Assembly: GCA_964023275.1 (NCBI GenBank)
Contig: OZ029914.1
Coordinates: 13,312,341-13,376,340 of the forward strand
Length of the DNA stretch: 64,000 nucleotides
Reading direction: 5' to 3'
Origin: Norana najaformis
Lineage: Eukaryota > Annelida > Clitellata > Crassiclitellata > Hormogastridae
Part shown: one piece after another, positions 4,342 to 63,595 of the stretch
Layout of the letters: every line of letters starts with the position of its first letter
Numbering within the stretch: position 1 is the first letter of the stretch
Notes under the pieces: model-generated
The model's input: the letters and a program-made list of their open reading frames with translations, nothing else
What the model was told of the DNA's origin: nothing
Databases searched by the model: none
Made by a program: the position numbers and the translations under genes

Positions 4342-5183
4342 TCAGCCTGAAATGTCAAAAACCAAAACGCTGCCACCGTTTATTGAGTTGTCACAGACAA
4401 GCAGGCGGCAGTTCGACTCGTCAACGAATATTTTTCGTGGATTTACCAATCCCAGTTTTCTTGAGACAAGTTTTCTCTGATATCCCAAATTCGATGTCAG
4501 CAACAAGATTCGACCGCCAGTTTCATCAACTACCAAGAATGAGCCATCTCTGTTCACTAACACGTTGATTGGACGTAAGCCTAATATTGAAGTGCTTAGA
4601 TCTTTATAGGAGGGTGACTTCAATACTTTTCCTTCATTGTTTATTATGCAGATTCTGCCTCCTGAAGCCTCACCGTAGGTCACCACGAAACGATCACTGG
4701 CTAGTTTCACCGCATGCCATGGATTCAATACATCAAGCGGTATCTCGTGGACCACTTGACCGTTTGGAGTGATTTCTATTAATTTCCTTTTATCCAATAC
4801 AGTTAGGATGATATTCGATTCATCGGTAATAGACAACCTAGCCGCGTCGTCGCCTTGCCATAATTTCTTTAAGATATTTCCACTCGCATCAACTCTTAGA
4901 ATTTCCATTGGTACACCAAAAGGTTTTCCATCGACAATATACAAACACTTGTTTCTAGAACAGGATACGATATCTCGCGGTTCTTCCAAAGTGTCAATGA
5001 TAAAGCATCGTTCAAAATGAAGGCTGGTGTAGTTGTATACTTCGATTTCAGAATTTTTCCTAGTTACAACAAAAATTTCATCAGCCAAAAGCGCCAGTCC
5101 ATAGATAGCGGTTTTATTTCTTTCTGATGCTTTTGTTCTGATCGTCAGAAGTAATTTCGGATCAGCTGTAAAGTCGATTTTTT
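4342..5183 (-). CDS. Copy 1 exon 9: six-bladed NHL-like beta-propeller and stop
   Basis: The last coding exon encodes 280 residues with six repeats, each of the form strand, x-D-x-G, strand. Recognisable starts are [62 protein letters not shown] and [17 protein letters not shown]. This fits NHL/TRIM2-like propellers, which bind proteins, RNA or other ligands. Equivalents: 19213-20054, 31192-32033, 42069-42973 and 58886-59793. The last two have a C-terminal tail about 21 residues longer. It ends FDISG-stop. Confidence 0.85.
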
Positions 5184-5976
5184 CTGTGTTAAAACATATT
5201 TATTAGTGCATAATAATTCGGCAATCTGTCATGTAAGTAAAAAAGGCGAACATCAGCACGACAATGTATGTATCACAACAATGGATAGATTGTTGGTAGA
5301 AATAAAAATTTTGAACTAATTCCTACATAAAATACATTAATAGCCTTAACATTGCGATTAGGTAAGGCCAGTTAACTAAAACAGTTCCGCTGTGACGTCT
5401 ATGACACCACCGATATCAGATATGTCACGCTGCTTGCCTATCTAGACGTATGCACAGAATTTGATACTGTGAGCCGCAGCCGCTCTGGTTCTTGCCAATT
5501 TCCTCATTCCGATGCATCTGGCCTACTGCAATGCTGCCTTAGAGGTTTGTCAAAATTCCAGATACGTTGGTTTCAACCATCCTAAATTGCGCCGTTCGAA
5601 ATGTTGCCAACCTCCGAAACTTAAAATAAAACTCATGATTCCGGCTATGTTTCAGACACTGACTTTTGGTCGAGAATAATGAATGACAGTAAGCAATTCA
5701 GTAAACATTATGGTTGAGAACCTTATAGTAACATTAGATTACGTTCTAAGTTACAAAAATGTCTATCCGTAGAACACTGTATTTTCTTCTCCCCTCTCTC
5801 TCTCTGGTCTCTAGCAACAGGACTTGTTTTTCATATAGCTTCTTTAGACAACCCCACTGACTTGATGCAGAGCTCGTCATTAAGAATCTGGTGCCCTGCT
5901 ATAAGCTTTTACCTGGCGCTTTAGAAGTTTCGAGTTTACGAGTACGATTATGTATAAAGCCTTACAGCTGTAACAC

Positions 5977-6029
<53 letters not shown>

Positions 6030-9000
6030 GGGAATTATAATACAAAAAGCTCGTGCAAATTGATTTTTAAAGCTTTGCTCACATCTCCAACTTAACGCGT
6101 CATTTCATGAACGCGTAGTAAGCAGGTCCATTTAGAAACTGTTAGCATCATGCATTCTACTTTTGCGATTACTTCAAAGATTAATTACACGATGCTTTGC
6201 GGCTTCCGATGCAGAATACTATGAACTGCAGACGAACAATCTATACGACGCTCATATCAAAATTCATCTATCATAATCCGAATAAAAATGAAAAACTAAG
6301 AATACTTGAAACTGTCGCTCACTTTCGTTCTTCTTCAAATCATCCAAGAATATAGTGATGCTGATGGGGATAAGTAATTCAGACGAATCCGACACATTAC
6401 CATTGGAAAACTGTTCGAAGATCGTTTCTAGTTTTTCAAGTAGGATCCCTGATGCATACATACTTTGCAAATCCCGTTGTGCATTTATCGACTGACACCA
6501 AAACCAGATCACAATTCCATTATCCTCCTGGTGAGAGAAAGGGACGATGACAATTTGATCATCTGCAGTTTTGAATGCCGTGTCTTCACTGCTAGGAAGT
6601 GGCAATCCTTGTGACTGGTTTAGTTTTTTGATTACCATGGCTTCCTTTTCTTTCAACTTCAATATTTTCTCGTTTGAGGATTTAGAGAATAGACGTAGTT
6701 GAAGCCCTTCTTTTATCAGTTTTGTCGATATCTTTGACTTAATAAGAACTGCAAGCATTTCAAATATAATCGCACAATCATAACATGCGTACAATTCTAT
6801 AGCGGCTATAAAAACATGATCTCCTCATATTTTAAAAAACCGATCCTCACAAGTTTCAATTAACATATGCAAAGTTAAGCATAGAACACCACTACCGTTC
6901 CGTTAAAAAATTGCAAGTGCGACTACATATGACATAAACTGGCAGAGCAATAATTCAAACAATAAAAAGGTGGCATAGTTACACAGAAAGTCACTTCTCA
7001 ATTGTAAGTTTCCATTTGTGCTATCATCGTTCATTTTCTTTACCTGATTGTTTGACATTTTTGAGAATGTAAGAGAATATAAAGCATCAACCTACTAATT
7101 TCAATAACTTGAAAACAAGTTGATTCGACTATAATTACAATTATAACTTATAATAATGATAATAATTATTATTATTATTATAATCATTACCTCCTCCTTT
7201 TTCCAAAAGATCGACAACAAAATTCTGTTCGGTCTGGCGAAAGCATTCTAGAACCCTCAAACCTTTGTCTTCAGTGAACGTAATCGTTCTCATCCAGAGT
7301 AGAAGTTCATCGTTCTTACAGAACCTGTAAGGCTGATTGCTCAAGTGCTCTTGTTCTTCATCCGTTATACAATTTTTTGAATGTAGTAGAGCAATCAAAC
7401 GATTTGAGTCCAGATTCTCAACCAGAAACTGATGATTGCTTCTAATCACAAGACTTTCTGTGTGAAATACATAGGAAAGCAAATGAAGAGAAATCTACAA
7501 TTAAGAACCCCATTTGGTCGACTGAAATAAACAAAGGCTGTCATACAATCATAACAGCACAAATTATCTGGTATAAATGAACCCTACAAATGTATGAGCT
7601 TATTATTAAAAATCTATTAATTTCATATGGAAAGAATAGGTAATGGTTACGACTCTCTCGAAATGTATTAACGTCGTTCTAGGTCACTATCAACACTCAG
7701 TCACAATCGAAACAATTTAATCATAATTGAATCAAAACACTTAGAGTTTACACATGAACTAATAAGGTGGAAGCCTACCACGATTAACGGCTGTGATATA
7801 TACGCCTTCGAGCTCACGATTGAGCTGTTGTGGCTGAATTGTTGCACAATTGAGTTTATTCTCTAACTCTGGCTTTCGTTGTTTTTCAGTTTCCAGTTCT
7901 TTTTGTAACTCCAATATTTGATCAGTTGCCAATGCTTTTGCATCCGCTGTCTCCTTTTGAGATTTAATTAGATCCAGCTTTTTCTCCTCAGCCAACTCCA
8001 AAGTCTTTTCCATCTCTTTATGTTGTGACTGAGTTGTTGCATAACTGAGGTTGTTCTCTAACTCCTGCCTTCGATGTTTCTCACTTTTTAATTCTTCTTG
8101 TAACTTCAATAATCGATCAATTGCCAATGCTTTTGCTTCCGCTGTTTGTTTTTGAGTTTTGATTAGATCCAGCTTTTCTTCCTCAGCCAACTCCAAAGTT
8201 TCTTTCATCTCTTCTAGTTGCCTTCGGAGCTCCCGACTGTTTTTCTGCTTCTCAAGCAGCTGTGCTTTGAGTGCAGTTCTAATCTCGTTTTTATCCTTTA
8301 GTATTTCGCATTCTTTCTTTAACTCGTCTCTTTCAGTTTTCAACAAAGTCATCCCACTTTTGCTTTCTTCAAAAGTTTCTTTTGATTTCTGAAGTTCACA
8401 TTCGGTGGACGCTAAACGGGCATTTAATTCATTCATTAGTTGTTGGAGGCTTTGTTTATCGCATTCTGTTTTCTCCAATCTATCTTCCATTTTCATGATT
8501 ACAGCACTATTCAAAAGTTTCTCTTCCTCGAATCGCCTGCACTTTGCTTTTTCATGGTAAATATCGGTCTTCAATTTAATTATCTTCTCTTCTAATTGTA
8601 TCCGTTCCTCACTGTTTTGAAATCTTTCGCTAGACAGGTCTTGTTTCAGGAAATGCAGTTGTGTTCTGATAACTTCATTTAGCGATGCAGCAGCTGAGTA
8701 TTTACTGGCATTTTCTTTCAATTGTTCCAACTCATTGTTTGTCTCTAATTTTCTTGTAACAGCTTCTTTCCTGATCTTGTGACAGTCTTAACAGAAAACA
8801 CTTGCAACTGTTAGCCGTGACTAGAATTTTAATGTACTTATTCGTTGGTCGTTGTAATTGACTGTGAGTTTAACTTAAAACCATATAATAAAGGCAAAAG
8901 TAGTTAAACATGAAAAGTAAGACTGCACTTCACGTATATCCCATCTATGTCACTGATCTCAAGAAAAGTCATTGTAATTTTAAAACAAGTAAGCACGCTG

Positions 9001-12000
9001 ACTTCAGTTTCGGGCTTCACATTGCCAGCATGTATATAAATTGAAACACATACCATCCAAAATTACAGCAATCATTTTGTCCATAGGGTTCACAAATACA
9101 TAATTTATGCCGTTTTTAATGGTACGCCCTCTACCAAAGCGTCTTGTTCAAAAAAATAATTTATTGCAGCTAGGGAAATATTTTCTGAGTTTAAAGAAAT
9201 CAGTATTACCTTGCAGTACAACATGACAACACATCTTCAAATTATCTTCTGTTTTATCTGAATAAAACAGGTAAACGGATATGACTTTGGTTGCGATTTC
9301 TGTCTGCAGTTGAGACTCAAGTCCACTTAGCCTCGCTTGAAATTTTGTTCCTTCAATCTAGGAATATTATGCAGAACACCTATACAGTTATTATCCAACG
9401 AAACCTAAAGGCTGACTTATTGCAAGCGATTTATTGCACTGTTCATTTACAATCTCAAGAAAAGCTTATATAAAAATGGAATTGGATTGAGGTAGAGAGT
9501 ATATCGAGACAACATCGCAAAGGCCATATAAAAATTGAGAGAGACAAAATTACGTATCCGGGTGGATTATCATAGGGTACCAAAGTTAACTGATATACAA
9601 TAGAGTGATGTTGATTAACAATGAAAATAATGATGTCGAAGGAATTTATACATACCCTCCGGAAATGGTCTGTTTTCTCTGCATTTTTGGCAACAATGTG
9701 TATTGATTTGACATTGCGCTGGACTACGGCTGACCCTCTGCCTGGCTTTGGTGGAGGAACTGGCTTTGAAAAAGAACGCACTGGAATGGGTTTCTGCCCA
9801 AATTTATGAAATGCTGTTGGTGACAGTTTCTTGCAAATACGTTTTGTTGTTTGCACTGTAGATGCCTCTGTGGCGTGGACAACAGGTGAATCTGCGAACT
9901 CAATGAATTCCAAAATCAATCAAGCTGGTCTATTTAAAATAAAAGGATATCAATAAGCTATGCATTATACACCAAAGGCTTTTTTGGACAATCAAAGTCT
10001 AAAGGAATGATACAATTGATCTAAACTTTGAACAAAGATGCAATACATTGACAAATATCTATGATTTTAGTCTCGTTAATATCTTGTTACACAAATGTTT
10101 CCTACCCATATCTTTTCCTAAAATTATGTTATCAGTTTTCAAGTAATCTCAAAGTTCTAAAGTCACACATTAGCAGTTTTCTAACCGGCCAGTAATATGA
10201 AACACAATCGAAGTAAACGCACAAGTACTGATTAACATCTCTTACTTAGCATTTGATACACACTTTGTTAATTGCAATGAAGACTTGTCACTCTAGCCTT
10301 TAAAATAGTGTATGTGTGCACAAATTAGACTAATAGTTGACTGCGAACATCATAATTACTGTAGCCTAATAGATATACAGCAGCAACAGCAGAATATAAT
10401 AATTTAAACATCTACCTTTTGGTGTTTTGAGTTTTGTAGCCAGGTGTCCTTGACCTGAGTCTTCTAGAGCTGATAAAAACTTGTCAAAGTCTTTCGGAGA
10501 TTTCTTGCTAAGAAGTCCAAGCAGAAACTCGTTCTTTTGGAAGGTGTCATTCAAACAGAAAATATGCTGTTTCTCGCGAGCCGTCAAGACCTCTTCTTGA
10601 TATAGCAGAGAAATGAGTCCATTTTGTATGTCGAGGTTATCTGATAACCATATGAAATTTCGGCAAATCAAGTCTTTATGATCCGAGGCATCTCCTCTAC
10701 TAGTCCCAGCACACGCTAAAATAAATTTCATAAAATTTTGAACTGCATGGCATAAAGAAAACCAGAAATAAAGAATTTGGCTATTAACTAGATTCTGACT
10801 TTAAAAACTGTTCACTCTCACACACTTGAAATAAAAGAGTGTATTACTGTACTTCCAAAATTCAGCTACTTTGTATAAAACTCTTTCTTTCATACATAAT
10901 AAGCAACCACCAGAAACTAATCCCCCAGGAAGGATAAAAATAATATTTTAACACTCAATCCAACATGAACGAAAGGATATGACTTATAATGCATATGGAG
11001 GTGTTTTATGACGTGCTATATTATTTTTATCAACATCATCTTCATCACTATCCTTATCATGATCATCATTGGCCTGATCATCAACATCATTGTTATTATT
11101 TTCATTGTCATTATTATTTTTATCATATTTACTATTTTTATTATTATTACATGAGGATTTTGTCTTACAGCACTTACAGTATTGGCCGTCACAAGCTCAA
11201 CAGAATCATAAGAGAGAATATTGATGGCGCTGAGCAACTGTGAGAGAAATACTGGCTCATGATTCCTACACAGTATCCATCTAAGGGAAGGCTCGAAACC
11301 CTACTCTTCGCGTTACAAGATGTGCGTTCTACCAATTAGCTACTGTGCCACACAAATAGTTAATATGTCAAACTTACCATCGTCACCAGACACCAGCATT
11401 TGATACAGATGCAACTGGTTCGTATGTTTAATGAGCGCCAAGAAATATTCATATGCGTGTCTCGGTTTTCTAGCAATGATGCTTAGCAGCTCTTCATTGG
11501 CTCGGATTGGAATTGACTGTAAATGTTGGATGTGTTCTATCTCCTTCAGTGTTAGTTTCTCCTCTTGATACATCGCTGCTATTATATCTCCCAGGCATGA
11601 AAGGTTGCTAACCAGCTGGTTGTATTTTATGTGAATTAATTGTCCATGTTCTTCTATAATAAATGAACAAAACAATAACTGACTGCTTTTTACGACGATT
11701 ATGCCTACCATAAATAAATGTGTTTGAACCATGTTTTCTGGATTTCATTTATACTTATACTTTTCCATAAATTAAATATTGTTTAGTTTTAAGTGCTTGC
11801 ATTCTTTTGTAATCTTTCAACTCTCCTTCTCAAACTGTTAAGGTTTTTAAACTGATATGCTGCATTTTGCTCCAACTTAAGCAAATCCGTGAAAAGTTAC
11901 GGAGTTATCTAAAATTTAGTTTACAACTTTGGATACTTTCATTCACTCTTTAAAATATTTTCTTACTTCGACATCTAACTTTTGAATTCGCGGTAGCCAT

Positions 12001-15000
12001 TTCAAAAATTTAAAAAAATAGTTGCTGAGCCAATTAAGATATGTTTATCGTTGATTTGGATTGTGTAGTCTATGATCTTCAGAAAGAATTCTGCAGCACA
12101 AGCCCATGTTCTGGATGATCGAATTCGACACAGTCGTGTACAAATTATATTACTTTACAATTGTTAAAGTAAATATTAGCTGCAATCCAAGTTTGTGACA
12201 TTATATCACACTACAGCGATTTGTAATGATAACACTGGCCAACACATAATTTGTTGCCTCAAATGTTAGAACTGTTTCTGGGTATATTTGACCTGCTGAT
12301 TCCAGAAAAGGCACCAGTTTTCTCCCAGCAGGTCTAGTTTTCGAGATATAGAACATTATGCCATAGACCAGTCCTTGACTCTGCTCGCCCATAAGACATA
12401 AGGCTATAGCTATAATTATGTAGTGCTCAATTTATTATGTGATACACTAAATAAACATAATAATACAAATACTTAAAAGAAAATGGTAGTACCTGAAACT
12501 GTACTTATATGATACCAAACAGAACAAGTTTGTTATAAAAATTTCAAGTCATTCGACACCGAAGAAGCTCCTTTTGTACGATTTCCGAGTGTGGCATCTG
12601 CCGGAACAATTGCGCATAATATTCCAGCAATAGTCTGCCATCATGTGTGCATCCCATCTTCCTTGATATCGATTTTCCATTGTTTTGATGTCTTCGTGAA
12701 ATCTTTCACCTTGCTCTTCGCTGAAGTCACCAAGATTCTCTGGAAAGCGATCTAAGTGACTGTGGAGATAATGGACTTTAATGCTCATGTTGCAGCCAAG
12801 CTTGTTGAAATGAAGAAGCATATCCTCTACTAGTTGTGCATAATTGTCTGCCTTCTTGTTGCCAAGAAAATTTTTAGTTACAAGAACAAAGGAAGACCAG
12901 GCACAAGATTCGATTTCATTCACTGATGGTATGAAAAGTGGGTCATTCATAAGTTGCCTGATCTGTGGACCATCGAAGATTCCAGCCTTCAATTTTTCCA
13001 TTGTAATTCCTGGTAACTTGTGTACTATGTATTCGAAGCATGAACCTTCTTTATTCAAAGCCCTGACAAATTGTTTCATCAGGCCTAGCTTTATATGTAG
13101 TGGTGGCAGTATGATCCTATCTCGTGCCACCAAAGATTCCTTGATTACATTTTGAGCTCCAACCACCATGTCTTTCCTCGAAGGCCAATCTTTTCTTGTC
13201 CAATGTTCATGCTTGGCTCTACTGTCCCAAAGACACAAAAAGCAGGGATACTTTGTGTAGCCACTTTGTTGACCAAGGAGGAAATTTACCATCTTCAAGT
13301 CTACACAAATTACCCATTGATGTTCTTTGTATTTTATCTTTTCCAGTACTAAAGAGATGGCATTGTACTCTTCTTTCATCCTGGTGGAGTGACCGATTGG
13401 AATAGAACCAAATTTGTTGCCGTTATTTAAAAGCACACATTTCAGACTACGTTTTGAACTGTCGATAAAAAGACGCCACTCATCTGGGCTGTAATCCGAC
13501 AGACCAATTTTCTTCAATAAGTTGCTGATGTCATTACAGAATACTAGGTTGTTGTCTTCGGTAAAGAATGGCAGCAAATCCTTTTCTCTGTTTCTATAAA
13601 TTGTAATTTTCGTTCCAGGCTGAAGTGCATTCTTTTCCTTTAGTCTGGACGCAAGCAATTCAGAGGACTCTTTGGAAAGATTTAAGTCCCTGATCAGATC
13701 ACTCATCTCTTTTTGGTCAAAACGTTCACTGTGTGAAGTTGATTGGAAATCACTGTCACTGCCCCCACTTTCTTCACTTTCGTCATCTTGTCCGATATTG
13801 GACATGCAAGTGTCATCGTCTGAGAGCTGAGGTAGTTCGCGAAAAGGTGGAACTGGTACAATATCCGAATGCGGAACAGGTCTCCTGGCTGAAGGTATAT
13901 CAGGGTAAGACAACTTGTGACGATTATTTCGATTGATGCCTATGATATTAACCATACAAAAGTAACAGTCGTCGAAGTGGTTTATCTCTTCCCTCCAAAC
14001 CATCGGTACACCAAATTTCAGGCAGCTTCTCTTTCCAATTGTCCAGTGGCGCAATTGTTCAATACAAGTTTTGCATACTGTATGAGGAGCCCATTGCTTA
14101 TCTTGATCTCCAAGTTTGACACCAAAATAACCTACATATGCTCCTTTTACAAACTCAGAAATCCGTTTCCTGTTTGCTTTTAGTGTGTATTCCCCACAAA
14201 TGTAGCAGAATATGTCTGGATGGTTAATGCAGCTCCGTCTGGAAGTAGCCATAACCTTAAGGATGCTCGCATCTAAGGAATTAAATGACTAACCTAAAAA
14301 ATAGTAAGAACATGTAGTTATTTAATGCTCACATTCACAGATTGTTCTTGCGACCAACTCTTAATATGCCCTAAGACGACTGCGGCTGCTCTAGCTTTCA
14401 GGAGGCGGTTTCTTCTTCTTTATGTTCTCTGCCCCTCGGCAGGTTCGTATGTCCAATGACGCCATCTTTCTCTGTTCTGTGCCTCTCTCTTCAGTCCACT
14501 GTATCTCTTCTCTGTCATCATCCAGTCCAGTAGCAGTGCTCTTAGGCGGTTTATATAGGCTATAAATGCTGACTTCAGCATAATCTATTTACATAGTTCG
14601 AAACCATGAAACGCTGTATAAGCACAAATAAATTCTAAATGAGGCCATGAATTTAGTGCTGAGTAAGCTGTAGGCTACGGAATAGTTATTTCGTTGAATC
14701 AGCAATATCTCAGCACGCGGCAAGATATGCTGATTTTACATTATAAGGATGTAGGCATTATATGAATCAGCAAGAATTATAATTAGCCATAAATAAAGCT
14801 TATTATGACATTTTAGTTTTGTCAAAGACATCGTTTAAAGAGTGGACTGGGTTTTCTTTACAAAATCGACGATATCTGAGAAACTAGACCTGATGCACTC
14901 AATAACTTGTATGGTAGTTCATTTATTTGTATTGTATCGTATTGCTTCTATTCTAATCTTGAAAAGCCTTGTCTATTCTATTCTATCTATTTTAGACTAG

Positions 15001-15413
15001 TCTGCAGTCAAACTCTGGCATAATTCAACAAAAATTTACTTCATTCTAATCTACTCTTAAGCTGAATCTTTTATTATCCATTCAAGTATACGTCTACTTA
15101 TTGGAGTCTAACCGGCTAAGCAAATGCTTTTGTCTTTATACTGACAAAAACATTTGTTTTATAAAGACATTGCCATACCATTCCCATAACAAACAAATTA
15201 CCATGCTGTGTGTCACAATTACAATGTAATGGTTTCAAAACTGTTGAAAAAACTGAGTTTTATTTTGTGTTTCTCAGCTATATTTTAAAATAAAAACTGT
15301 ATTGACACGAACTCACCTTCTTGCTGTGCAAACTGAGTTGATTTTGTTTCTTCTTCAGCAAGTTGTAGGGCGACATACCACAACTGGTCCCTTCGCGTTG
15401 AATTCCCAGCCAT
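4342..15413 (-). CDS. Array copy 1: triple-CARD, coiled-coil, NHL-propeller protein (1199 aa)
   Basis: Nine coding exons, in transcript order: 15413-15317, 11653-11378, 10715-10416, 9891-9656, 9357-9210, 8786-7779, 7457-7191, 6748-6323 and 5183-4342. All junctions are GT-AG and the sum is 3600 nt, an exact reading frame. All introns are phase 1 except intron 4, which is phase 0. Domain order: CARD 1 (about residues 33-124), CARD 2 (125-224), proline-rich linker (225-303), short exon (304-352), coiled coil (353-688), CARD 3 (689-777), TRADD-N-like segment (778-919), six-bladed propeller (920-1199). The start is chosen because the [12 protein letters not shown] frame is shared by copies 1-3 and joins CARD 1 in phase. 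It is the longest copy because of a 195-bp duplication in the coiled-coil exon. Intron 1 holds a separate 2.7-kb element. Function in CARD signalling is inferred from the domains. Confidence 0.9.
5370..5700 (+). pseudogene. Reverse transcriptase relic in intron 8 of copy 1
   Basis: Plus-strand fragments match the LDYCNA-L-GL region that lies C-terminal to the reverse transcriptase of L2/CR1-type LINEs. A better preserved version is at 32880-33535, in the same intron of copy 3. It is broken by frameshifts. Confidence 0.55.
5981..6026. repeat. (AT)n microsatellite
   Basis: An uninterrupted run of about 22 AT units in intron 8 of copy 1. It is absent from the matching intron of copies 2 and 3. 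Confidence 0.95.
6323..6748 (-). CDS. Copy 1 exon 8: TRADD-N-like alpha/beta segment
   Basis: About 142 residues. A basic helical lead-in ([14 protein letters not shown]) precedes a predicted beta strand [10 protein letters not shown], a helix [18 protein letters not shown] and a closing strand [10 protein letters not shown]. The strand, then Y-x-SG-x-L helix, then strand order resembles the N-terminal domain of TRADD and related invertebrate death-signalling proteins. This is a pattern match by eye, not a search result. Equivalents: 21326-21751, 34448-34873, 43380-43811 and 60387-60824. The 3' half is almost identical between copies 1 and 2. Confidence 0.7.
7191..7457 (-). CDS. Copy 1 exon 7: CARD 3
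   Basis: A third death-fold domain of the CARD type, placed after the coiled coil: [20 protein letters not shown] (helices 1-2), [10 protein letters not shown] (helix 3), ELLLWMRTI (helix 4), [20 protein letters not shown] (helices 5-6). Equivalents: 22205-22471, 35311-35577, 44819-45085 and 61192-61458, all 267 bp. In copies 1-3 a trinucleotide AT-rich microsatellite starts a few bases past the donor. Confidence 0.82.
7779..8786 (-). CDS. Copy 1 exon 6: long coiled coil
   Basis: One 1008-bp exon of heptad-rich, Glu/Lys/Gln-rich sequence, for example [13 protein letters not shown] and [19 protein letters not shown]. It begins with a [12 protein letters not shown] segment that has its own phase-1 acceptor. 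Equivalents: 22776-23588 and 35918-36730 (813 bp), 45619-46452 and 62049-62882 (834 bp). It is expected to drive oligomerisation, as coiled coils do in CARD9/CARD11-type scaffolds. Copy 1 has one extra 195-bp unit. Confidence 0.85.
7826..8215 (-). repeat. 195-bp in-frame tandem duplication in the coiled-coil exon
   Basis: The motif CCTCAGCCAACTCCAAAG starts at 7986 and again at 8181, exactly 195 bp apart. Both units encode a [13 protein letters not shown] segment followed by an ALA-D-L-LQ-EL-EK heptad run. Copies 2 and 3 have a single unit, and their exon is exactly 195 bp shorter. The outer boundaries given here are approximate. The duplication adds 65 residues and keeps the frame. Confidence 0.9.
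9210..9357 (-). CDS. Copy 1 exon 5: conserved 49-residue segment
   Basis: Entered in phase 0 and left in phase 1, this exon reads [20 protein letters not shown] followed by a hydrophobic and cysteine-containing stretch. Equivalents: 24010-24157, 37141-37288, 47012-47159 and 63448-63595, all exactly 148 bp. The constant length and the F-x(3,4)-L/I-ES-L-TEI-x-K pattern across both subfamilies argue for a real coding exon. The F-x-x-R-L-x-x-L-E-S start looks helical and may begin the coiled coil. I do not recognise a domain. Confidence 0.78.
9656..9891 (-). CDS. Copy 1 exon 4: proline-rich linker with PPPKP
   Basis: A low-complexity, basic linker of 78 codons, the only exon ending in phase 0. 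It contains [12 protein letters not shown], a PxxP-type motif of the kind bound by SH3 domains. The PPPKP core persists in the equivalents 24460-24695, 37584-37819 and 52118-52281, even though the rest of the linker diverges and copy 4 is 72 bp shorter. SH3 binding is inference. Confidence 0.78.
10416..10715 (-). CDS. Copy 1 exon 3: CARD 2
   Basis: A second CARD, from [12 protein letters not shown] to HLATKL. Key pieces are [17 protein letters not shown] (helices 2-3), [12 protein letters not shown] (helix 4) and [16 protein letters not shown] (helices 5-6). Equivalents: 25137-25436, 38297-38596 and 53445-53729 (15 bp shorter). The second half is nearly invariant among copies 1-3. Two CARDs in tandem near the N-terminus recall the arrangement in RIG-I-like receptors, though no helicase follows. 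Confidence 0.88.
11028..11352 (-). repeat. tRNA-derived SINE in intron 2 of copy 1
   Basis: The minus strand has a tRNA-like head at 11352-11290, with box A-like TAGCTAATTGGTAGA and box B-like GGTTTCGAGCC. A body with GGCGCTGAGCAA follows, then an ATT/ATG-rich tail down to 11028. It lies 26 bp inside the intron. The same insertion is present in copies 2 and 3 but not in copy 4. Confidence 0.75.
11378..11653 (-). CDS. Copy 1 exon 2: CARD 1
   Basis: The whole exon is one caspase recruitment domain. Visible landmarks are [16 protein letters not shown] (helices 1-2), [13 protein letters not shown] (helix 3), a [13 protein letters not shown] segment (helix 4), [13 protein letters not shown] (helix 5) and LYQML (helix 6). 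This is the classical CARD pattern ending in F-x-AL-x-x-x-Q-x-H-L. Equivalents: 26077-26352, 39191-39466 and 54363-54638. It would mediate CARD-CARD assembly with partners in the cytosol. A tRNA-derived SINE sits only about 26 bp beyond the splice donor. Confidence 0.88.
12233..14903 (-). mobile_element. 2.7-kb insertion carrying a 567-aa ORF in intron 1 of copy 1
   Basis: Intron 1 of copies 2 and 3 is continuous where copy 1 has this block. The flanking intron sequence resumes near 14905 (TTGTATTGTATCG). Inverted sequences near both ends (12330-12349 and 14872-14892) share AGGTCTAGTTT and AGATAT, with 17 of 20 positions equal. Candidate boundaries repeat ATAAC. The block contains one intact intronless gene. 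It is probably a DNA transposon or similar mobile unit, but I could not prove terminal repeats at the exact ends. Confidence 0.55.
12549..14252 (-). CDS. Intronless 567-aa protein of a dispersed, unnamed family
   Basis: A single uninterrupted frame from MATSRRSC to FFGVE. The N-terminus has zinc-binding-like cysteine pairs: C near HPD, CYIC, CKTC, and later CYFC. An acidic serine-rich spacer follows (residues about 150-190). The middle has [15 protein letters not shown] and [14 protein letters not shown], and the C-terminus has [19 protein letters not shown]. From memory, similar intronless proteins occur many times in cnidarian, arthropod and mollusc genomes without a known function. Repetition in genomes, lack of introns and the flanking inverted repeats point to a mobile-element protein. 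Conserved Asp and Cys/His residues could be catalytic or metal binding, but I cannot identify a transposase family. Confidence 0.8.
   Translation of the reverse strand: MATSRRSCINHPDIFCYICGEYTLKANRKRISEFVKGAYVGYFGVKLGDQDKQWAPHTVCKTCIEQLRHWTIGKRSCLKFGVPMVWREEINHFDDCYFCMVNIIGINRNNRHKLSYPDIPSARRPVPHSDIVPVPPFRELPQLSDDDTCMSNIGQDDESEESGGSDSDFQSTSHSERFDQKEMSDLIRDLNLSKESSELLASRLKEKNALQPGTKITIYRNREKDLLPFFTEDNNLVFCNDISNLLKKIGLSDYSPDEWRLFIDSSKRSLKCVLLNNGNKFGSIPIGHSTRMKEEYNAISLVLEKIKYKEHQWVICVDLKMVNFLLGQQSGYTKYPCFLCLWDSRAKHEHWTRKDWPSRKDMVVGAQNVIKESLVARDRIILPPLHIKLGLMKQFVRALNKEGSCFEYIVHKLPGITMEKLKAGIFDGPQIRQLMNDPLFIPSVNEIESCAWSSFVLVTKNFLGNKKADNYAQLVEDMLLHFNKLGCNMSIKVHYLHSHLDRFPENLGDFSEEQGERFHEDIKTMENRYQGRWDAHMMADYCWNIMRNCSGRCHTRKSYKRSFFGVE
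15317..15413 (-). CDS. Copy 1 exon 1: start codon and N-terminal segment
   Basis: Encodes about 32 residues beginning [13 protein letters not shown] and ending FAQQE before a phase-1 GTGAGT donor. Equivalents are 27330-27426 (copy 2), 40420-40516 (copy 3) and 55154-55253 (copy 4, one codon longer, MVNGISSRRDQLWYF). The RRDQLWY core and a run of acidic residues are kept in all four. A conserved ATAG acceptor shortly upstream of the ATG in copies 1-3 suggests that the exon includes a short 5' UTR. An overlapping longer frame beginning MSNADSIK is not conserved and does not splice in phase. Confidence 0.85.
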
Positions 15414-15772
15414 GTCAACTTCTCAGTTTCTATATCAAGATATTGCTTTATGCTATCTGCATTTGACATAACATTGGATTAAGTTTCCATTATCATAAAC
15501 GGTAAAAGGTAAAAATCCAATTCTATGTTTCAGCAATTTTCACCTTACCATATGAATCATTTCAGAGGTTAAGAAATATACATACATGCAAACAAATACA
15601 GTACATACATTCTTGTGTGTTTCTTAGTAGATATGATTTTTGGAGATGCAATATATATGACTTATTTCATTATATTACTTAAATACATGCATCTAAATTT
15701 TAATGCAGAGGTATATAAAATGTAGTAATATACGCATAAACTTGATAAACGATAGAATTGCGAAGCTCTTAC

Positions 15773-15960: not shown

Positions 15961-16004
15961 TCAGGCCGACAGCTGCGCTAGTGTAATTCATAGACATGGT
16001 GCAC

Positions 16005-28030: not shown

Positions 28031-28064
28031 GCTGCGTGAGTGTACATCATAGTCAGAGTTTAAT

Positions 28065-41100: not shown

Positions 41101-41139
41101 ACGCTGAAACGGGCCGGCAGCTGCGTGTATGCCTTTGAT

Positions 41140-51000: not shown

Positions 51001-54000
51001 ATCTAATCTCGTATGCCTGAACCCATCTAAGACGGAATTCGTACTTATTGGCCTACGTGACCAGCTCAAGAAAATTCCTGACCCTTCTATCTCCTTCACC
51101 CTGGGCTCTGCCTCCACCAACACAATTAATATTAATTCTCCTGTCCGCAATTTAGGTGTAGTATCTGACCAATACCTCTCCTTTTCTGATCATATCAACC
51201 ATCTTTCTGCTCTTGCTTCATGCATATCCGTGACCTCTGCAGAATCCGCCCTATGCTTGACTTCAAAACTGCATCTACCATCGCCACATTCATAGTCCAT
51301 GCAAAACTTAATTACAGTAATTCACTTTTCCTCAATATAGACAAAACTCAGATAAATCGCCTTTAAGGAATTCAGAATGCTCTCGTTCGTGCCGTCACCA
51401 AATCTCCCAAATACCATCACATCACTCCTGTTCTGAAATCACTTCACTGGCTTAAAATATCAGAATGAACAGAGCACAAAGTATTATCCCTCAGCTACAA
51501 CACACTTCAATCCTCTCAACCCTCCTATCTTCGTCAATTATTTACAATCCAACCACTCCTCATCAGTCCTAACACTTCTTCGCCCTCCCGTCACCTCATC
51601 CTTAAAATTTGGAAATCGCTGCATAGCCATAGCTGCCCCACCCCTCTGGAATAAACTCCCGCCAAATTACGACAATTATCTGTTTCATTATATGAACTTA
51701 CCAACACTTCACCTCTGTCAGTGTCTGGGCAGGTCTTTCACTCAAGACTGAAAACATTTCTTTTCCCAAAATCTTATCCTGATTCTTCCTCTTCCTCTTA
51801 TCTCTCTTCTCGCTTCAATTTCAAACATCATCCACCGTAGCCATCCGACTGTCTGACTGCCTGACTCCTGGATCTTGACCTGGAACCGAACCCTTTTGCC
51901 TATCAATTTTGTTTTGACTGAGCGCCTGTGAATAAGCTGGTTCCCGCGACTTAGCTTTCGTTGGGCGCTGTAGAAATCTCGAGATCACGATTACGATCCG
52001 TTTCTCTGTAGAATAACCAGGCTTTATAATGTTTCGCGAAAAGGTAGGTCTACTTCTGCGAAAAGCTACAGATTAACTACATACGAACTTTAAAAATAAA
52101 ATATGAAACGTCTTTACCTTGCGATTTTGATTTATGGCATCGGAACAATAAGAACTTCGAAGTGGCGACGTGTTACGATGTTGGATTACGGTTGATTTAA
52201 TGCAAGGCTTTGGTGGAGGAAATGGTTTTAATGAAGAAAATTCGGAATTGTGCGTTTTCTGTTGGGGTTTAGATGGCACTCCTAAACCATTGAAGAGAAG
52301 ATATACTTTACGCAAAATAGTCTTCTGAACGATTTAAAACATGTATCAGATCGTGGTGTGCCATATGTGCTGATAATAGACTGGGACCGATGTAACTATT
52401 TTGAAACTTACTACAACCAACTCTACTAGGGAGTTGTTCATTTAGCATATTATTTTAAAATGATTAAAGACGCAACCATGTTTTCAAAGTTTTGAATTGC
52501 GGTCTCTTTCCAATAAGAATTTTTAAAGCACAAATTTAGGCTAAATGATCGCTTATCAATTACAGGTTATATTTAATAGGCGCTCAACTTTCGTTTAAGA
52601 TGTTGTACATTTTAAATTATAACTTAACTTATTCCAAGAATCATTTATCGAATATCATACCTACGCTCATATATAATTGCCAGTGACTTTGGAACAACAA
52701 ATAGCAAAACAGTTAGCCATAATTTAAAACGAGTGTTTTTAGTATTTATGTATTGCTTAGGATACCTGGATTATGTGTGACATAATCATAATACATAAAA
52801 ATCACAAAATGCAATATAATACATGAAAACAAATAAAACAACATAAAATAATATAGCATAACCCAGCATTTCATGACCGAGGCTTAATTGGTTCAAAAGG
52901 CTTTCATCTATGTTAGAACCACAACGCCTCATAGTACCTTAGCATCCACAAATAACTTACTATGTATTAATCTATACCAGGACTCTAAATCTTGTAGTGA
53001 CTTTTTACTTTTTAGCCGCAGTATGATGTTTCTCTTAGTAAAATTACTTAAGTGCCTCGATTTTTTAAAATGACTCGATTTTGATATTTGGCTCCGGAAG
53101 TCAGATAAAACATTTATATTTCCATCAACTTATTACTCCTCCAAAATGGCTTCTCGCCTTCTCTTTTCTTTTTCCACATGACGTCTTTCGGTTTCTGCTT
53201 GATTCCGACATACTTGTAAAACATCTTTCCTTACTCTTACATTTGCATATCTTACGCTGAAAGATCTCTACTGCATTGAACGAAATAATGAATATGTCGT
53301 TTATTTTTATCAAGATCGGTAACGACTCATGTCTCATTTTGTTACATACTGGAATCATTTGTAGATGTCGAGTAAATGTGTCATGATATCGATATATACA
53401 AGTGAAACTTTAACAATGAAAGAGGAAGCCTTATATTTTTATACCTTTTGGCTGCTTGAGTTTGACAACTATATGAGATTGGTTTGTTTCCTCCAGAGCA
53501 GTCAAGAATTTGTCGAAGTTTTCCGTTGACTTTCTGTTCAAAACCTCCAAGAGCGACACGTTCTTCTGAAATTGACCCCTCTTGCAAGCAATCTGCTCCT
53601 TCTCGCTGAAGGTCAATACACTCCGTTCATAGAGCAGAAAGATAAGTTCATTTTCGGTGTCCAATCTTTCTGACAGCCAAGTGAAATTTTGACAAATTAA
53701 GTCTTTGTGATTTGAAGCTTCTTGTAGGCCTAAGTTTAAAAATTAACAAATTACATCCACATCAGAGTAAAGTAAACTACATAGTAAAGTAAGCAACATA
53801 ATCTGCATTTTATTAAGTCATAGCATGTCATGAACATCACTTTAACATTAGCTTTCAGTTTGAGTTTAAAACTATGAAGATAATAGTAAGATCTGTGCAG
53901 TTTAAAAATGCGTATGTTGCATTTGTTATTAGATTAGGTAGGAAATGACTTCAAGTTAATGTTTTCTATTATGTCTCAGTTTTCCTGATTGTCATTCTGC

Positions 54001-55253
54001 TGAAGCGTCAGCCCTTCACCTTTGCGTTAGGTATTTGAGCACTGAATATTTCTATACACAAAAATGTCTTATGTAACACTTCATGTTGATGATTGCTTTA
54101 TCCAACACCATGAAGCCTGATGGACTACAGAATCAAGTCTTCGAGACTGTTGCTGACAAATCTGTTAGATCAGCTTTTTGCGGATTCTAAAAGATACATA
54201 TTCATGCATATGTACAAGAGGCATTAGCTTGTAAACGATCACATCATTTGCAGTAAAGTATAGATGAGCTTCAAATTGTGCCACATAGGAAAATAAGTAA
54301 GACTAAAAGTGGTATTTGTATCGTAGCAATTTAAGCAACTATAGGCCTACATGTGAACTTACTGTCGTTTGAGGACGTCAGCATTTGGTACAAATGCGAC
54401 TGGTCTGTAGCTATTAAGAGTTTCAAGAACCATTCATATGCATCTCTGGGTTTCTTGGCTATGACGGTTAGCAGTTCCTCGTTGGCTTTGATGGGTGTAG
54501 CCTGTAAATCGTAGATATATTCGAACTCCTGTTGAGTCAGCTTCTTCTTTTCATACATTTGCGCTATAATTTCCCCAAAGCACGACAGGTTGCTTACTAG
54601 TTGGTGGTATTTCATCTGAATCCGATTTCCATGTTCTTCTGAAAGAAAGAAATAGTACGGATTTGTTTATGAGTTCCTCTTAAACTTAGATTGATAGAAA
54701 CAGCAGCCTATCCACAGCGGGCTCTCAGCACTTATAGCCTTTATCTGTTGTTCGTCTACTCCTTTCAAGAAAGAATTTCATTTCATGCCCACTAATTGGT
54801 GACGATATTTTTTTTTGTCCTGCACTAGCAAAAGCTTAGCCGATTGCCATGCTGATGGTAGATGTAAAGCTTCACTCGATATCTGACATCGGTAAGTCTT
54901 CTAAACGAAGACTTATTGTAAGCAGATCATGTGATCTTCCTTTGAAGGTCCTGTTTCTATCTGCTGCGACTTTAGAAATTCCTCTTTGCATTCTAGAGGT
55001 CTTTACAACTTAGGTGCGAATCTATCGTGGTTGTTGTTGAAAAGGGCATATGTGTTCATTATTTTACCTTTGAAATAAAAAAGAGTAAAACCGACAGATG
55101 TCTACATCTGTGAAATTGTGTAAAGACTGAATTGCATAATTATAATAAAATACCTTCTTCTCGCGATAATGTGCAAGTTTTCAGTTCTTCTTCGATTAGA
55201 TTAACAGCGAAGTACCACAGCTGATCCCTTCGCGATGAAATTCCATTAACCAT
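42069..55253 (-). CDS. Array copy 4: triple-CARD, coiled-coil, NHL-propeller protein (1136 aa)
   Basis: Exons in transcript order: 55253-55154, 54638-54363, 53729-53445, 52281-52118, 47159-47012, 46452-45619, 45085-44819, 43811-43380 and 42973-42069, total 3411 nt in frame, all GT-AG. Domains: CARD 1 (about 34-125), CARD 2 (126-220), short linker with PFPPPKP (221-275), exon 5 (276-324), coiled coil (325-602), CARD 3 (603-691), TRADD-N-like with IAIWFWCHSQ (692-835), propeller with a longer C-terminal tail (836-1136). It belongs with copy 5 rather than copies 1-3 and lacks the intron 2 SINE. Intron 4 is about 5 kb because of an antisense LINE. The gene still appears intact. Confidence 0.9.
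46981..47091 (-). repeat. 111-bp segment duplicated at 47814-47924 (source)
   Basis: This segment covers the 3' part of exon 5 of copy 4, its splice donor and the first bases of intron 5. The second copy, 833 bp away in the same orientation, is identical by eye. The source lies in the functional exon. Confidence 0.9.
47814..47924 (-). pseudogene. Partial exon 5 duplicate beside the LINE 5' end
   Basis: A perfect copy of 46981-47091 within intron 4 of copy 4. It keeps the donor side of exon 5 but lacks its acceptor half, so it cannot be spliced as the original is. The LINE begins within a few bases of its right end. Confidence 0.85.
48504..48533 (+). other. 2A-like motif in the LINE N-terminal region
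   Basis: Encodes SGDIHPNPGP. The 2A consensus for ribosomal skipping is D-V/I-E-x-N-P-G-P. Here His replaces the Glu, so skipping may be weak or absent. 2A-like peptides are known near the N-terminus of some CR1-clade LINE proteins. Confidence 0.6.
49105..49437 (+). mobile_element. Nested 5'-truncated copy of the same LINE family
   Basis: The endonuclease frame breaks off after TPSPE, then gives FHSKLKTFVFH and LLSNPKHHP (polyprotein C-terminus), the 3' UTR and GATTAC repeats. The host endonuclease then resumes with EFLITDD. The nested copy is therefore a later insertion of a related element. GAA flanks both sides and may be part of a short target duplication. Confidence 0.8.
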
Positions 55254-58440: not shown

Positions 58441-58675
58441 TCATATTCATTCATTCATTCATTCATTCATCAATCTCATTTACTTATTCGAATTCAAAAG
58501 CGAATACTAGTTTAAAATTAACAGACGAAGTCAGTAGCTGTGAGATAAAACAAAAGTATTTGCAAACAAACTTGAATCTTATATAATTTAATATTTTTAA
58601 CATAGTCCAATAGCATCATATTTATCTAAGCGTTGTTACTAGCATATATAATTGTGAGGAATGCAAAAGGCTCTT
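58441..58675. repeat. Insertion with (ATTC)n and a partial exon 9/intron 8 junction
   Basis: Interrupts the 3' flank homology between copies 4 and 5. It starts with an ATTC repeat (58443-58471). At 58504-58625 it contains a copy of the intron 8 sequence next to the propeller exon (CTAGTTTAAAATTAACAGAC), as at 42974-43060, but without the exon. Confidence 0.65.
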
Positions 58676-58885
58676 AAATGCGTACATATTCGATTACGTT
58701 CATTATAATGTTCAAAAGTCGCAAACCAAACAATATACGGTACTGTAGTTCGCCACTATCGAAGAGCAAACCAATAAAAAAATTCAACCAAAATATCTTA
58801 TCTATCAGTTGATCACAACTTCGAATCTTATCTTACTTGTCAAACTTTCTTGCCTGTCGATTCATTGGAATAACTGACCAGGAAG

Positions 58886-61800
58886 TCAAACTTTAATCGA
58901 AGTATCTTGTGTATTCGCGTGTTTTTCACGCGAAACGTTTGTGCCTCCGATGTCAAACACATGAATCTGGCCGTTATTTCGTAAAAGAACATCACCAGTG
59001 TTCTCAGCTACCAGCAAACGACCATTTGATTCGTCCAGTAAAACCCGTCGTGGATTTTTCAATCCGTGTTTTGCTGTGACGAGTTCTCTTTGATATTTTA
59101 AAGTGGACGTCAGTAACAAGACACAATTACCTTTTTCGTCAACCACCAACACCGATCCAGCTTTATCTAGTGCCATATAAATTGGAAAAATACACGTAGA
59201 ACCCGGCTCTTTATAGTAATTGTCGTGGCATATTACAACTTTTCCTTCAGTATCTACTATGCATAGTCCAACTACGCCTTTGCCGTAGCTGACCACAAAA
59301 TGACCACTTGTCAGTTTGACGGCATGCCACGGACTCGTAAATGCAAGTTTTATATCGCGGATCAATTGTCCATCTGAGGTCATTTCGAGAATTTTGTGTT
59401 TATCCAAGACCGCCAAGATGATGTTCGACTCTTTGGTAACAGACAGCCGTCCCCAGTCGTCTCCTTGCCACAATTTCTTTAAGAAATATCCGTTTGCATC
59501 GATTCTAAGAATTTTCATTGGCTGGCTATGATGTCCACCGTCTACTATATAAAGACTCTTTTTTATGGGACAGGATACAATATCTCTCGGTTCTTCTAAA
59601 TTATCGATGACAAAACTGCGCTTGAAATCCAGGCTGGTCACGTTATACACTTCAACGGATGAACTGCATTCGTTAACAACAAAAACTTCGTCGTCTAAAA
59701 TGGTAATTCCGTATATTCCCGCTCTATTCTTCTCTGCAGCTTTTGTTCTGATCGTTAGAAGTAAGGCGGGATCTCTTCTGTAGTCGATGATTGCTAGGTT
59801 AATATTTGAAGACAAAGTCAATAGGTGTGAGACAAAACAAAAGTATTTGCAAAGAAACTTGAATCTAATATAATTTAATATTTTTAACATAGTTCTATAG
59901 TATCATATTCATCTAACTCCGTGCAAAGAGAAGACAAAAATTGCCCTTCGGCTTGAAAATATTGACCTAGGTTGTTTGACTATGTGCTATTGTAGTTTCT
60001 ATTATATATTTTAAGCAGCGAGCAAATCTTCGATGCCACCTACACAAACAAATTTCAACGCCAATACTAAAGGAATGAAGCAACAAAAATGATTTAATCG
60101 CGTTTTCGAAATGCATCGCATCGAAAGCAGGATGCACCTGGTAGAGAAACTCCTTAGGCCACGATTGCACACGATCTTGAACAAGTCATAATAGTCAACT
60201 ATTTGGCGCTAATCGATGATGTCTTGTATAACGGAAACAGTAATATTGCTTAGGAAAATATTAAAGACTGAGCAACTAAGGCAATGTTCTGCATGATTTG
60301 TAGCAATGAGTGACTGTTTTCAAATATATAGTCGATGCTTCTGAAAAAGACTGATGCATAGTTTCGAAATTTAACATCATGCTCACCCATTGCCTTGATG
60401 AATTCGACAATGTGTATTGCAACAGTATGAGGCACTGGAGCTGCAGTTGTTGAAGTTGTAGAAGATCCTGTGGTTGATAGTTGTTTGAAAAGCGTGGCCA
60501 GTCGTTCTATCAAGACGCCTGAAACATACATTCCTTGCAATCTGTGTAGACTATTCTGCGAGTGGCACCAAAACCAGATAACGATTCCAATTCCATTCTC
60601 TTCGCGATGACAATAAGGAGCAATTTGTAATTCGTCACCGAACAATTCCGAAATAGTTTTTAGGATGCTTCCAGAAGACGGTTTGACTTGTGCTTGATTC
60701 AGTTTCAAGGCCACAGATTCTTCTTTTTCTTTCAATGTCTGGGCTTGTTCACTCGATAATTTCTTTCGTAAATTAACGGAAAATCTTGACGCCAGATTGC
60801 ATGAAATGCTACACTTGACAACAACTGAAAGTAACGACAGAAATTATTTTATGGCCTTGAACACACTCTAAGCATAAGATCCTAATTATCATTATTATTA
60901 TTTTTGCTTCCTTAGCTACAGTTGAATTGTTAGAACAGTTTATTTTTTTAAAATTGAAACCTCATTTTAGATTATGTTATGCAAAATGGAGGTCTACCTA
61001 TAATAAGAGAAGAATATCAACATGAATATTTCTAAATATTACTAAAATCCCAATTGAGCCTTTTATTTTAACATATTCATTTGAATGATTAATACTGAAG
61101 TCAATTTAAACTAAGTGTAAAATCTAGGATCAATGAAACAAGACTAAATCCTGAAAGCTTAACACGTTGTTGCTAAAAGACTTTGAATTACCTCCTCCTT
61201 TCAATAAAAGATCTGCAATGAAGTCCTGCTTAGTTTCACGCAAGCATTCCAGAACAATCAGGCCTTTGTCTTGTTTGAACGTAATCGTTCTCATCCAGTG
61301 TAGAAGTTCATCGTTCCTATAGAAGCCGCATGGCTGATAATTCAGATGATCTCGTTCTTCATCCGTAATACAATTTTTCTCATGCAGAAGATCAATTAGA
61401 CGACTTGAATCCAGATTCTCCACCAGAAACTGATGATTGTTTCTTACAACAAGTGTTTCTTCAGTTGGAAATTTTTCTTTTTCTTCTGGGTTAGCAAACA
61501 AGTTGTACTGATAACTTTAACCCGCAAATTATTAGGCTAACTTGTCTCAATAAAAATAACCTAGTATAATAAATTGAAACATGCTCGGTTTTACTTGTTT
61601 CTTAAGATGTAGTCATTGTAGTTTTTCCGTTAAACTTAAATTTTATTGCCTTCAGTGTTTTCATGATTATGAAAAGTTTAGCATACCAGTTTGACAACAA
61701 TTTTGAAATCAGTAAGCATTGATCAGTAGTTGCTTGTTTATTATTTGCCAATTTGTGGTAGATAACCAGAATAGTAGACATCGTTTTTGTTGATGTATGC

Positions 61801-63595
61801 ACTTCGGAAAAACAAAAAGTTCGATAACTGCATTTATTGCTAGTATAGGTTTGTAATTCATGGAAAAAGAATGAAATGCGTATGAAAAGCTAGTTTTCAA
61901 TAAAAGTACTGAAATTCTCCAAATGACATAATTATTGAACTACATCTAATACATCTATTCAAAAATTTATCTAACTGCCATGCATGTTAATGTCGTATCA
62001 AAATAGTACTTACTCAAGTACATGACAGAATAACGAAGTTTAGCTTACTTAACGTGACTGAATTGACTTTGTTAACATTTTGAAAAACTTCCAACTGACG
62101 AGTAGCTTCTTCTAAGTTATCCAATGCTTCTTTGGGAACTGTTTCTTTTTCGATCCTAAGCCGTTTTTCCATGTCTAGCTCTTCTGTCATCCTCGATTGA
62201 AGTCTCAGCTCTGTTTGCTTCATTTCTTCTATGGTATGTTTATGGATTTCGCATTCTTTTTCAGTTGCGCTTAAAACTAAGGCACTCTCATGTAGCTTAG
62301 CCTGAAATTCATTGGCATTTTCCTTCTCCTGAAGTAATTTTTCTTCAACCTCCTTCAAATGTTGATTCTGTTTTATTAATTGATCGCATGCTTTCTTTAA
62401 ACCTTCATTTTCTATTTCGATCAATCTCAACTTCTCATAGGTTTCTTTCAAACTCTTCTCTTGAATGACTCTACTTTGTTTCTCCTCTCTAGCTAATGAT
62501 ATCTGCTGACCTAGTTCATGCAGGCGTTTCTCAAGGCTTTGCTTCTCGCTCTCTGCGCTACTCAGTTGTGATTCTAACTGCTTTATGCTGATTCCTTTCA
62601 AGTGATTCTCTTCCTTAAGTATGTTGCACTTCTTTTTCAATCCAAAAATCTCGTCCTGTGCTTTAGCCAACTTCTCTTCTATGAGTTCTTGCTGGTTGAA
62701 CATTAGCTGGTTGAGATTTTTCTGTTGTTTCAGTTCTTCTTTCAAGGACCGTATTTCACCTTTAAGGGTATCATTTATCGAAATTGCTGCTGAATATTGA
62801 CTGGACTTTGTATCCAGCTGTGCTAATTTCTCGCGATTATCTGATTCTGATTTAGTCAATTCATTCCTGAGTTGATGATTTTCTTAAAAAGAGAGAAAGA
62901 AAATATGTGATTTCCCATTTAGCAATTGACCTTTAGGCCTATACTGCATTGAAGACAGGTTGTTGTCCATAACAGCATTTAATTTAGCTGCAACGTGAGG
63001 GATAGTGGGTATAAGAAAACTAACTACCCAATTTCTAAGAAGCCTTAGGTTTTTTAATAGATTGTTAGTAGAAATAATGGCAGCAATGAACTGACAAAAG
63101 TAGGATTTTACGCCAAATCAAGTATATCCTAATTACTGCTAGTCTAACAAAACTCGCTGTGTTAGAAACAATGTAACACCTGACACTAATATTTCTAGAA
63201 CCCTTAGTGCGATAGCGTTCAGTGTATGAAAAATTTTGTTTAATGAGCACTAGGCTATATATGCTTATGACAAGGGACAAATTTAACAGGCTGGTTTCAG
63301 AAGTGTTATATTGACCCTTTATAATTACTAATTTAACACAAACAATTTTGTCGAGAAGCAGGTAAGTATATCAATATTCTTTTTACAGGTTATATTGTTT
63401 CAAAATCAATCTAAATTGCTAAAAGGAAATTCGATGCTTTAAGATACCTCGTAGAATATGAAGAAGGCATGTTTCTGACATATCTGCAGATCTGTGTGAA
63501 GTACACGGACGCAATACTATGACTTTGGTGGAGATTTCTGTCTGCAGTCGACTCTCAATTCTTTGAAATTTCTTTTTGAATTGATTGTTTTTCAC
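58886..63595 (-). CDS. Array copy 5, partial: exons 5-9 of the CARD/NHL protein
   Basis: Exons present, in transcript order: 63595-63448, 62882-62049, 61458-61192, 60824-60387 and 59793-58886. They join in frame (2595 nt including the stop). They encode the exon 5 segment, coiled coil, CARD 3 ([20 protein letters not shown]), TRADD-N-like segment (IVIWFWCHSQ) and propeller with the longer C-terminal tail. Exons 1-4, with both N-terminal CARDs, must lie beyond the right end of the window. It is the closest relative of copy 4, with matching exon sizes apart from 3-6 bp. No disabling change is visible. Confidence 0.88.

Follow-up and report, generated by a model that had tools for sequence, protein, structure and literature searches.

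The window analysed here, 64,000 nucleotides of contig OZ029914.1 from the annelid Norana najaformis (positions 13,312,341 to 13,376,340 of the forward strand; all positions below count from its first letter), carries on its minus strand a tandem array of related genes, four complete nine-exon copies and one partial copy. Each complete copy joins two CARDs, a predicted coiled coil, a third CARD, a probable TRADD-N-like domain and a predicted NHL propeller in one protein. Introns and CARDs mark the DNA as of animal nuclear type, and tRNA and Rfam scans of the window gave no match. An earlier note on this DNA had described five intact copies in that domain order; the array itself stands, with four complete genes, but the fifth copy has exons 5–9 only and is cut at the window edge, and within the order the CARDs, coiled coil and propeller hold up while the TRADD-N step is probable only.

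The array and its gene models

The gene model of copy 3 came from reading by eye with reading-frame correction, the other four copies were located by tblastn with the copy 3 exons, and splice sites were picked under imposed GT/AG and phase constraints and later revised. The copies thus modelled span 4342..15413 (copy 1), 19213..27426 (copy 2), 31192..40516 (copy 3), 42069..55253 (copy 4) and 58886..63595 (copy 5), all on the minus strand. Copies 1–4 run from ATG to stop through nine exons each with no internal stop, giving proteins of 1208, 1143, 1143 and 1145 aa; the frames are thus open as had been claimed, with a small boundary difference from the proposed 1134–1199 residues. Exon 1 lies at 15317-15413, 27330-27426, 40420-40516 and 55154-55253 in copies 1–4, respectively, and exon 5 at 9210-9357, 24010-24157, 37141-37288, 47012-47159 and 63448-63595 in copies 1–5. 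GT..AG junctions fall at homologous positions across copies 1–4, and intron phases are identical among them (phase 1 throughout, with intron 4 in phase 0). The exon 8 donor reads gtgagc in all five copies, and the exon 9 acceptor and its phase 1 are likewise kept in all five; intron 8 measures 1139–2414 bp in copies 1–3.

GT..AG junctions can be placed throughout copies 1–4, but two boundaries are ambiguous. In copies 1–3, exon 8 has two candidate acceptors 57 bases apart, of which we chose the inner one because it aligns with copies 4–5 (the alternatives are at 6805, 21808 and 34930). Copy 4 exon 6 could also be spliced from a donor 27 bases further upstream, which fits the copy 5 donor and would end the exon at 45619, leaving a protein of 1136 aa. 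The least certain placement of all is that of copy 4 exon 4. Copy 5 has an open frame of 864 aa over exons 5–9; the window ends 405 bases beyond 63595, and any exons 1–4 of this copy, with CARD1 and CARD2, would fall beyond that end. Because the window edge cuts copy 5, we count the array as four complete copies and one cut copy.

Domains of the encoded proteins

CARD1 occupies exon 2 (11378..11653, 26077..26352, 39191..39466 and 54363..54638 in copies 1–4), CARD2 occupies exon 3 (10416..10742, 25137..25463, 38297..38623 and 53445..53729) and CARD3 occupies exon 7 (7191..7457, 22205..22471, 35311..35577, 44819..45085 and, in copy 5, 61192..61458). All 13 of these exons matched the Pfam CARD profile PF00619 at E<=1, the best at 3.4e-11. 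In copy 3 the E-values were 2.2e-10, 2.6e-6 and 2.4e-4 for CARD1, CARD2 and CARD3, the last scoring 21.5 bits, slightly short of the curated Pfam cut-off of 23.9. Profile matches in the PDB were themselves CARDs, headed by CARD8 (6.6e-8) and followed by RAIDD, Apaf-1 and others, confirming three CARDs per protein as originally proposed. CARD was the only Pfam family matched by the joined copy 3 protein at E<=1, with no RING, B-box, MAGUK, NACHT, NB-ARC or helicase match.

Between CARD2 and CARD3 lies the long exon 6 (7779..8786, 22776..23588, 35918..36730, 45592..46452 and 62049..62882 in copies 1–5), whose product has 0–0.6% proline and a heptad periodicity that was equalled by 4, 5, 15, 0 and 1 of 300 shuffles for copies 1, 2, 3, 4 and 5, respectively. 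The predicted coiled coil is supported by these two properties, in agreement with the original proposal. Copy 1 exon 6 also contains, at 7826-8213, an in-frame 195-bp tandem duplication that adds 65 residues.

The last exon, exon 9 (4342..5183, 19213..20054, 31192..32033, 42069..42973 and 58886..59793, with a short C-terminal tail in copies 4 and 5), is confirmed by structure prediction as a six-bladed NHL-type propeller, closest to the NHL domains of TRIM-NHL proteins. The AlphaFold2 model of copy 3 exon 9 (pLDDT 82.8, pTM 0.82) has 24 strands, which we grouped into six four-stranded blades, the last of them completed by the N-terminal strand. Among the best 50 rows of a fold search with this model, the first 23 were NHL domains (best E 1e-14), namely those of TRIM2, Thin, TRIM3, Brat, Mei-P26, TRIM71/Lin41 and NHL-2; RNA-bound structures of Brat, Lin41 and Trim71 are among these nearest folds. 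The propeller claimed from inspection was thus borne out. A sequence-profile search of the PDB placed designed Pizza propellers on top and then TRIM71, and the Pfam NHL family matched exon 9 of four of the five copies at E<=1 (best 2.3e-4), copy 3 remaining sub-threshold. Pattern searches for relatives of the propeller in collections of viral and prokaryote genome contigs, the only ones covered, gave 23, 43 and 88 matches and no relative. The propeller may resemble large families of sponges.

Exon 8, between CARD3 and the propeller (6323..6748, 21326..21751, 34448..34873, 43380..43811 and 60387..60824 in copies 1–5), has 43 columns that are invariant among the five copies. We compared it with cyanobacterial domains of PF20694 (TRADD-like_N), namely 17 domains from 10 of 16 genomes reached through loci and 12 new domains from 12 of the 292 genomes of a phylum draw (one genome already counted); 27 of these 29 domains were used, the partial L109 and L110 being dropped. 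Profile–profile comparison of exon 8 with the bacterial set scored 19.7 (P 0.0066) over a span that would be beta2-beta3-alpha2, a score reached by one of 300 column shuffles, while the reversed profile scored 9.0 and control profiles from the CARD, NHL and coiled-coil segments gave P 0.16–0.62. Of the six columns conserved in the bacterial set, four (D, S, G and L) align to residues invariant in all five copies. The match varies with the sets compared: P was 0.079 against the smaller set of 17 bacterial domains, 0.0071 for copies 4–5, 0.064 for copies 1–3 and 0.0025 to 0.12 for single copies, and the alignments of these exon 8 subsets all end at bacterial columns 65–66. In a hidden Markov model scan of the 644 open reading frames of the window, exon 8 of copy 5 came first, with a weak E of 0.26, and those of copies 2 and 1 came fifth and eighth; those of copies 3 and 4 were not among the matches listed.

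Several results count against a TRADD-N identity. Exon 8 of the five copies matched no family in Pfam or NCBIfam, and its fold model (pLDDT 45.7) is too poor to judge the RRM-like two-layer alpha/beta fold. The hallmark of TRADD-N described in the main text of PMC8195603 is a conserved tiny residue and Ser motif in the beta2-beta3 turn, and this Ser was not found in exon 8, where the aligned turn is N-G in all five copies in place of the hallmark Gly-Ser. Nor did exon 8 match human TRADD-N, 277 of 300 shuffles scoring as well. The positive control bears on this last result: human TRADD itself aligned out of register with the bacterial set (P 0.057, 7 of 150 shuffles as good), so it is too distant for the profile method either way. 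Other searches added little, a PADLOC scan of copy 3 exon 8 yielding nothing usable and a PDB profile search only weak matches, headed by cytochrome c oxidase subunits at E 0.18. On balance we think it quite probable that exon 8 encodes a divergent TRADD-N, but because the hallmark Ser was not found we stop short of counting it among the full members; the TRADD-N-like label of the earlier note is retained in this weaker sense.

Constraint and exchange among the copies

Because the splice rules had been imposed on the gene models, exon versus intron identity and the ratio of nonsynonymous to synonymous substitution rates (dN/dS) were examined as independent support. The copies form two subgroups, 1–3 and 4–5. 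Among copies 1–3, identity was 0.87–0.98 for exons 1–3, 5, 7, 8 and 9 and 84–89% for exon 6, vs. 0.59–0.87 for introns; between copies 4 and 5 it was 0.88–0.94 for exons and 0.65–0.71 for introns. For recent copies, dN/dS was 0.13–0.26 in CARD1 and CARD2, 0.30–0.49 in the coiled coil, 0.17–0.48 in exon 8 and 0.42–0.72 in the propeller, that is, clearly below 1 in each of these segments; in exons 8 and 9, dN was below dS in every pair for which both could be computed. CARD3 gave 0.18–0.52, except for copy 1 vs. copy 2, which gave 1.84 at a dS of 0.019.

The two linker exons fared less well, and their behaviour weighs against the exon model at these places. Exon 4 (9656-9891, 24460-24695, 37584-37819 and 52118-52281 in copies 1–4), the fastest-changing linker, has an identity of 0.71–0.79 among copies 1–3, lower than both flanking introns in two of the three pairs, and its dN/dS of 0.55–1.16 shows no clear constraint; neither does that of exon 5, at 0.69–2.15. 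All four copies of exon 4 nonetheless contain PPPKP, a possible docking motif.

The closest pair of copies shifts along the gene, being copies 1 and 2 in exons 7–8 and intron 7 and copies 2 and 3 in exon 6 and intron 6. This change suggests gene conversion or unequal exchange among copies 1–3 over exons 4–8.

Mobile elements have left traces in and near the array. Intron 4 of copy 4 contains open frames on the opposite (plus) strand at 48195-51751, with no Pfam match, which resemble the remains of a non-LTR (long terminal repeat) retrotransposon; the frame at 48195-48752 contains GDIHPNPGP, a string similar to a 2A ribosome-skipping motif. Intron 1 of copy 1 measures 3663 bp, compared with ~1 kb for its counterparts in copies 2 and 3, because it holds a 579-aa open frame (12549-14288, minus strand) that appears transposase-like by eye and has no Pfam match. 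A retrotransposon-type endonuclease (PF03372, E 1.4e-8) lies outside the genes at 2166-2849 on the minus strand. Inverted repeats pair 20413-20770 in copy 2 intron 8 with 49099-49426 and 51629-51994 in copy 4 intron 4, at 77–87% identity, and probably belong to one mobile-element family.

Proposed role and relation to known systems

Judged by its domains, we give even chances to the proposal that each gene encodes an intracellular sensor-scaffold, placed inside the cell because that is where its domain families point. The propeller would be the sensor, and its ligand might be RNA or protein of an invader or else a product of host stress. Oligomers would form through the coiled coil, and the exon 8 domain, which follows the Death-fold segments and precedes the propeller, could act as a conformational switch. 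On sensing, the clustered CARDs would seed CARD–CARD assembly and so recruit a CARD-bearing adaptor or caspase, with cell death or inflammatory-type signalling as the outcome. The immune or cell-death role is one that we infer from the domain families. For related invertebrate proteins, the main text of PMC8195603 proposes propellers as possible direct readers of invader molecules and TRADD-N as a switch. Tandem duplication with near-constant CARD1 and CARD2 and with drifting linkers and propeller is as expected for a shared output with diversifying inputs. More tentatively, and with the odds against it, the array might represent a class of its own among cytosolic pattern receptors, in a non-vertebrate animal, in which an NHL propeller, reading RNA or protein as TRIM-type propellers do, would act via a TRADD-N-like switch on a triple-CARD, coiled-coil filament nucleator, combining RLR-like output with TRIM-NHL-like sensing and diversified by tandem duplication.

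Beyond the difficulties with exon 8, other observations weigh against the sensor-scaffold proposal. The heptad signal is weakest in copy 3, where 15 of 300 shuffles were as strong. Variation of the propeller is only weakly biased to one face: variable sites in the da and bc loops vs. the other face numbered 27/75 vs. 11/58 in copies 1–3 (p 0.035, uncorrected), 16/75 vs. 7/58 in copies 4–5 (p 0.18) and 53/75 vs. 32/58 in all five (p 0.07), and we do not rely on the six Fisher tests made (top vs. bottom loops and loops vs. strands, three sets each), three of which fell below 0.05 uncorrected. Nor do the variable sites of copies 1–3 and 4–5 coincide, with 7 shared and 9.5 expected. Between the two subgroups, moreover, propeller dN/dS is 0.18–0.27, a sign of clear purifying selection, and the propeller is therefore not hypervariable.

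Two other accounts of the genes, each of which we consider unlikely, draw on the same domains. In the first, the proteins would be CARD-bearing counterparts of TRIM-NHL proteins, whose coiled coil and NHL propeller bind RNA or protein in post-transcriptional or developmental regulation, with the CARDs aiding clustering and immunity not the main role. The nearest folds of exon 9 speak for it, being TRIM-NHL domains of which several (Brat, Lin41 and Trim71) have been solved with RNA, and so does the presence of a coiled coil together with an NHL propeller, a combination we know from TRIM-NHL proteins. The joined copy 3 protein, however, showed no RING or B-box; its three CARDs, of which CARD1 and CARD2 are the most constrained segments between recent copies, point to CARD signalling; and a tandem expansion of drifting copies would, from general knowledge, be unusual for a developmental regulator. 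Residue counts for the propeller (K+R 30–38 vs. D+E 34–40) likewise show no strong net positive charge, these being figures for the whole domain and not a map of its surface.

In the second account, to which we give no better prospects, the genes would encode a constitutive scaffold built of CARDs and coiled coil in the manner of CARD9/11, with sensing done upstream by another protein and the propeller serving only to dock a host partner. Scaffolds of this type have one N-terminal CARD followed by a coiled coil, and the pairing of CARD with coiled coil recurs here; the PPPKP kept in all four copies of the fast-changing exon 4 could be a docking site. Against it, the present proteins have three CARDs instead of one, a MAGUK part was not found in copy 3, and between recent copies the propellers diverge faster in protein than the CARDs. 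Highly improbable is a third account, that the CARD exons and the exon 8–9 part are separate transcription units or that some copies are silent: the long intron 8 of copies 1–3 would suit it, as would an in-frame ATG that precedes exon 9 and shares its open frame in three of the five copies (2, 4 and 5), but those ATGs lie at differing distances from exon 9 and are absent in copies 1 and 3, the exon 8 donor and the exon 9 acceptor and phase are common to all five copies, and dN below dS in every computable pair covers both exons.

Were the sensor-scaffold proposal true, an animal would have built its own CARD receptor from a TRIM-type propeller and a triple-CARD nucleator, with neither a NACHT nor a helicase module, and the array would offer a way to test how new sensors were gained by CARD signalling. 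The paralogue set, with near-constant CARD1 and CARD2 and with drifting linkers and propeller, is ready for asking what the propeller recognises.

The array had been put forward as an undescribed family, which holds only in part, since the class of proteins it most resembles was published in 2021. In the main text of Kaur et al. (PMC8195603), an NCOA6-clade expansion of TRADD-N is reported with 357 proteins of the sponge Amphimedon, the majority of whose architectures start with one to three Death-like domains, continue with TRADD-N and end in a variable C-terminus; oyster and amphioxus TRADD-N proteins there carry beta-propellers, of WD40 type where the type is named. The present genes share the plan of one to three Death-like domains, a further domain where TRADD-N would stand, yet another one following it, and several paralogues. 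'NHL' does not occur in that main text, as distinct from the supplementary architecture table, and the published Death-like/TRADD-N class thus gains a layout that its main text does not mention. No protein joining CARD to an NHL propeller appeared in the literature matches listed, a coverage that leaves out most subscription papers; one figure legend of PMC8242945 names both CARD and NHL, in words from which it cannot be told whether they belong to the same protein. The triple-CARD/coiled-coil/NHL genes are a new layout within a described class of invertebrate defence-like proteins, although full membership in the class of Kaur et al. is not claimed because the TRADD-N identity of exon 8 is inconclusive.

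Compared with known systems, the genes stand apart from NLR, RLR and Apaf-1 proteins in that no NACHT, NB-ARC or helicase core was found in the joined copy 3 protein at E<=1. CARD9/11/14-type scaffolds likewise combine CARD and coiled coil, but the present genes have three CARDs and a propeller, and copy 3 showed no MAGUK part. With TRIM-NHL proteins (TRIM2/3/71, Brat and Thin) they share the NHL propeller as nearest fold and a coiled coil somewhere before it, copy 3 having CARDs in place of RING and B-box, neither of which was found. TRADD and DEDD2, as treated in the main text of PMC8195603, similarly join a Death-fold domain to TRADD-N in one protein; here CARDs replace the Death domain or DED, and exon 8 has no detectable match to human TRADD-N. 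Closest in plan are the NCOA6-clade proteins of the same text, which also place one to three Death-fold domains first and a TRADD-N-type domain before the C-terminal part and also occur as many paralogues; from these the present genes differ in an exon 8 without the hallmark Ser, in a set of three CARDs of which the second and third are separated by a long coiled coil, and in their terminal NHL propeller.

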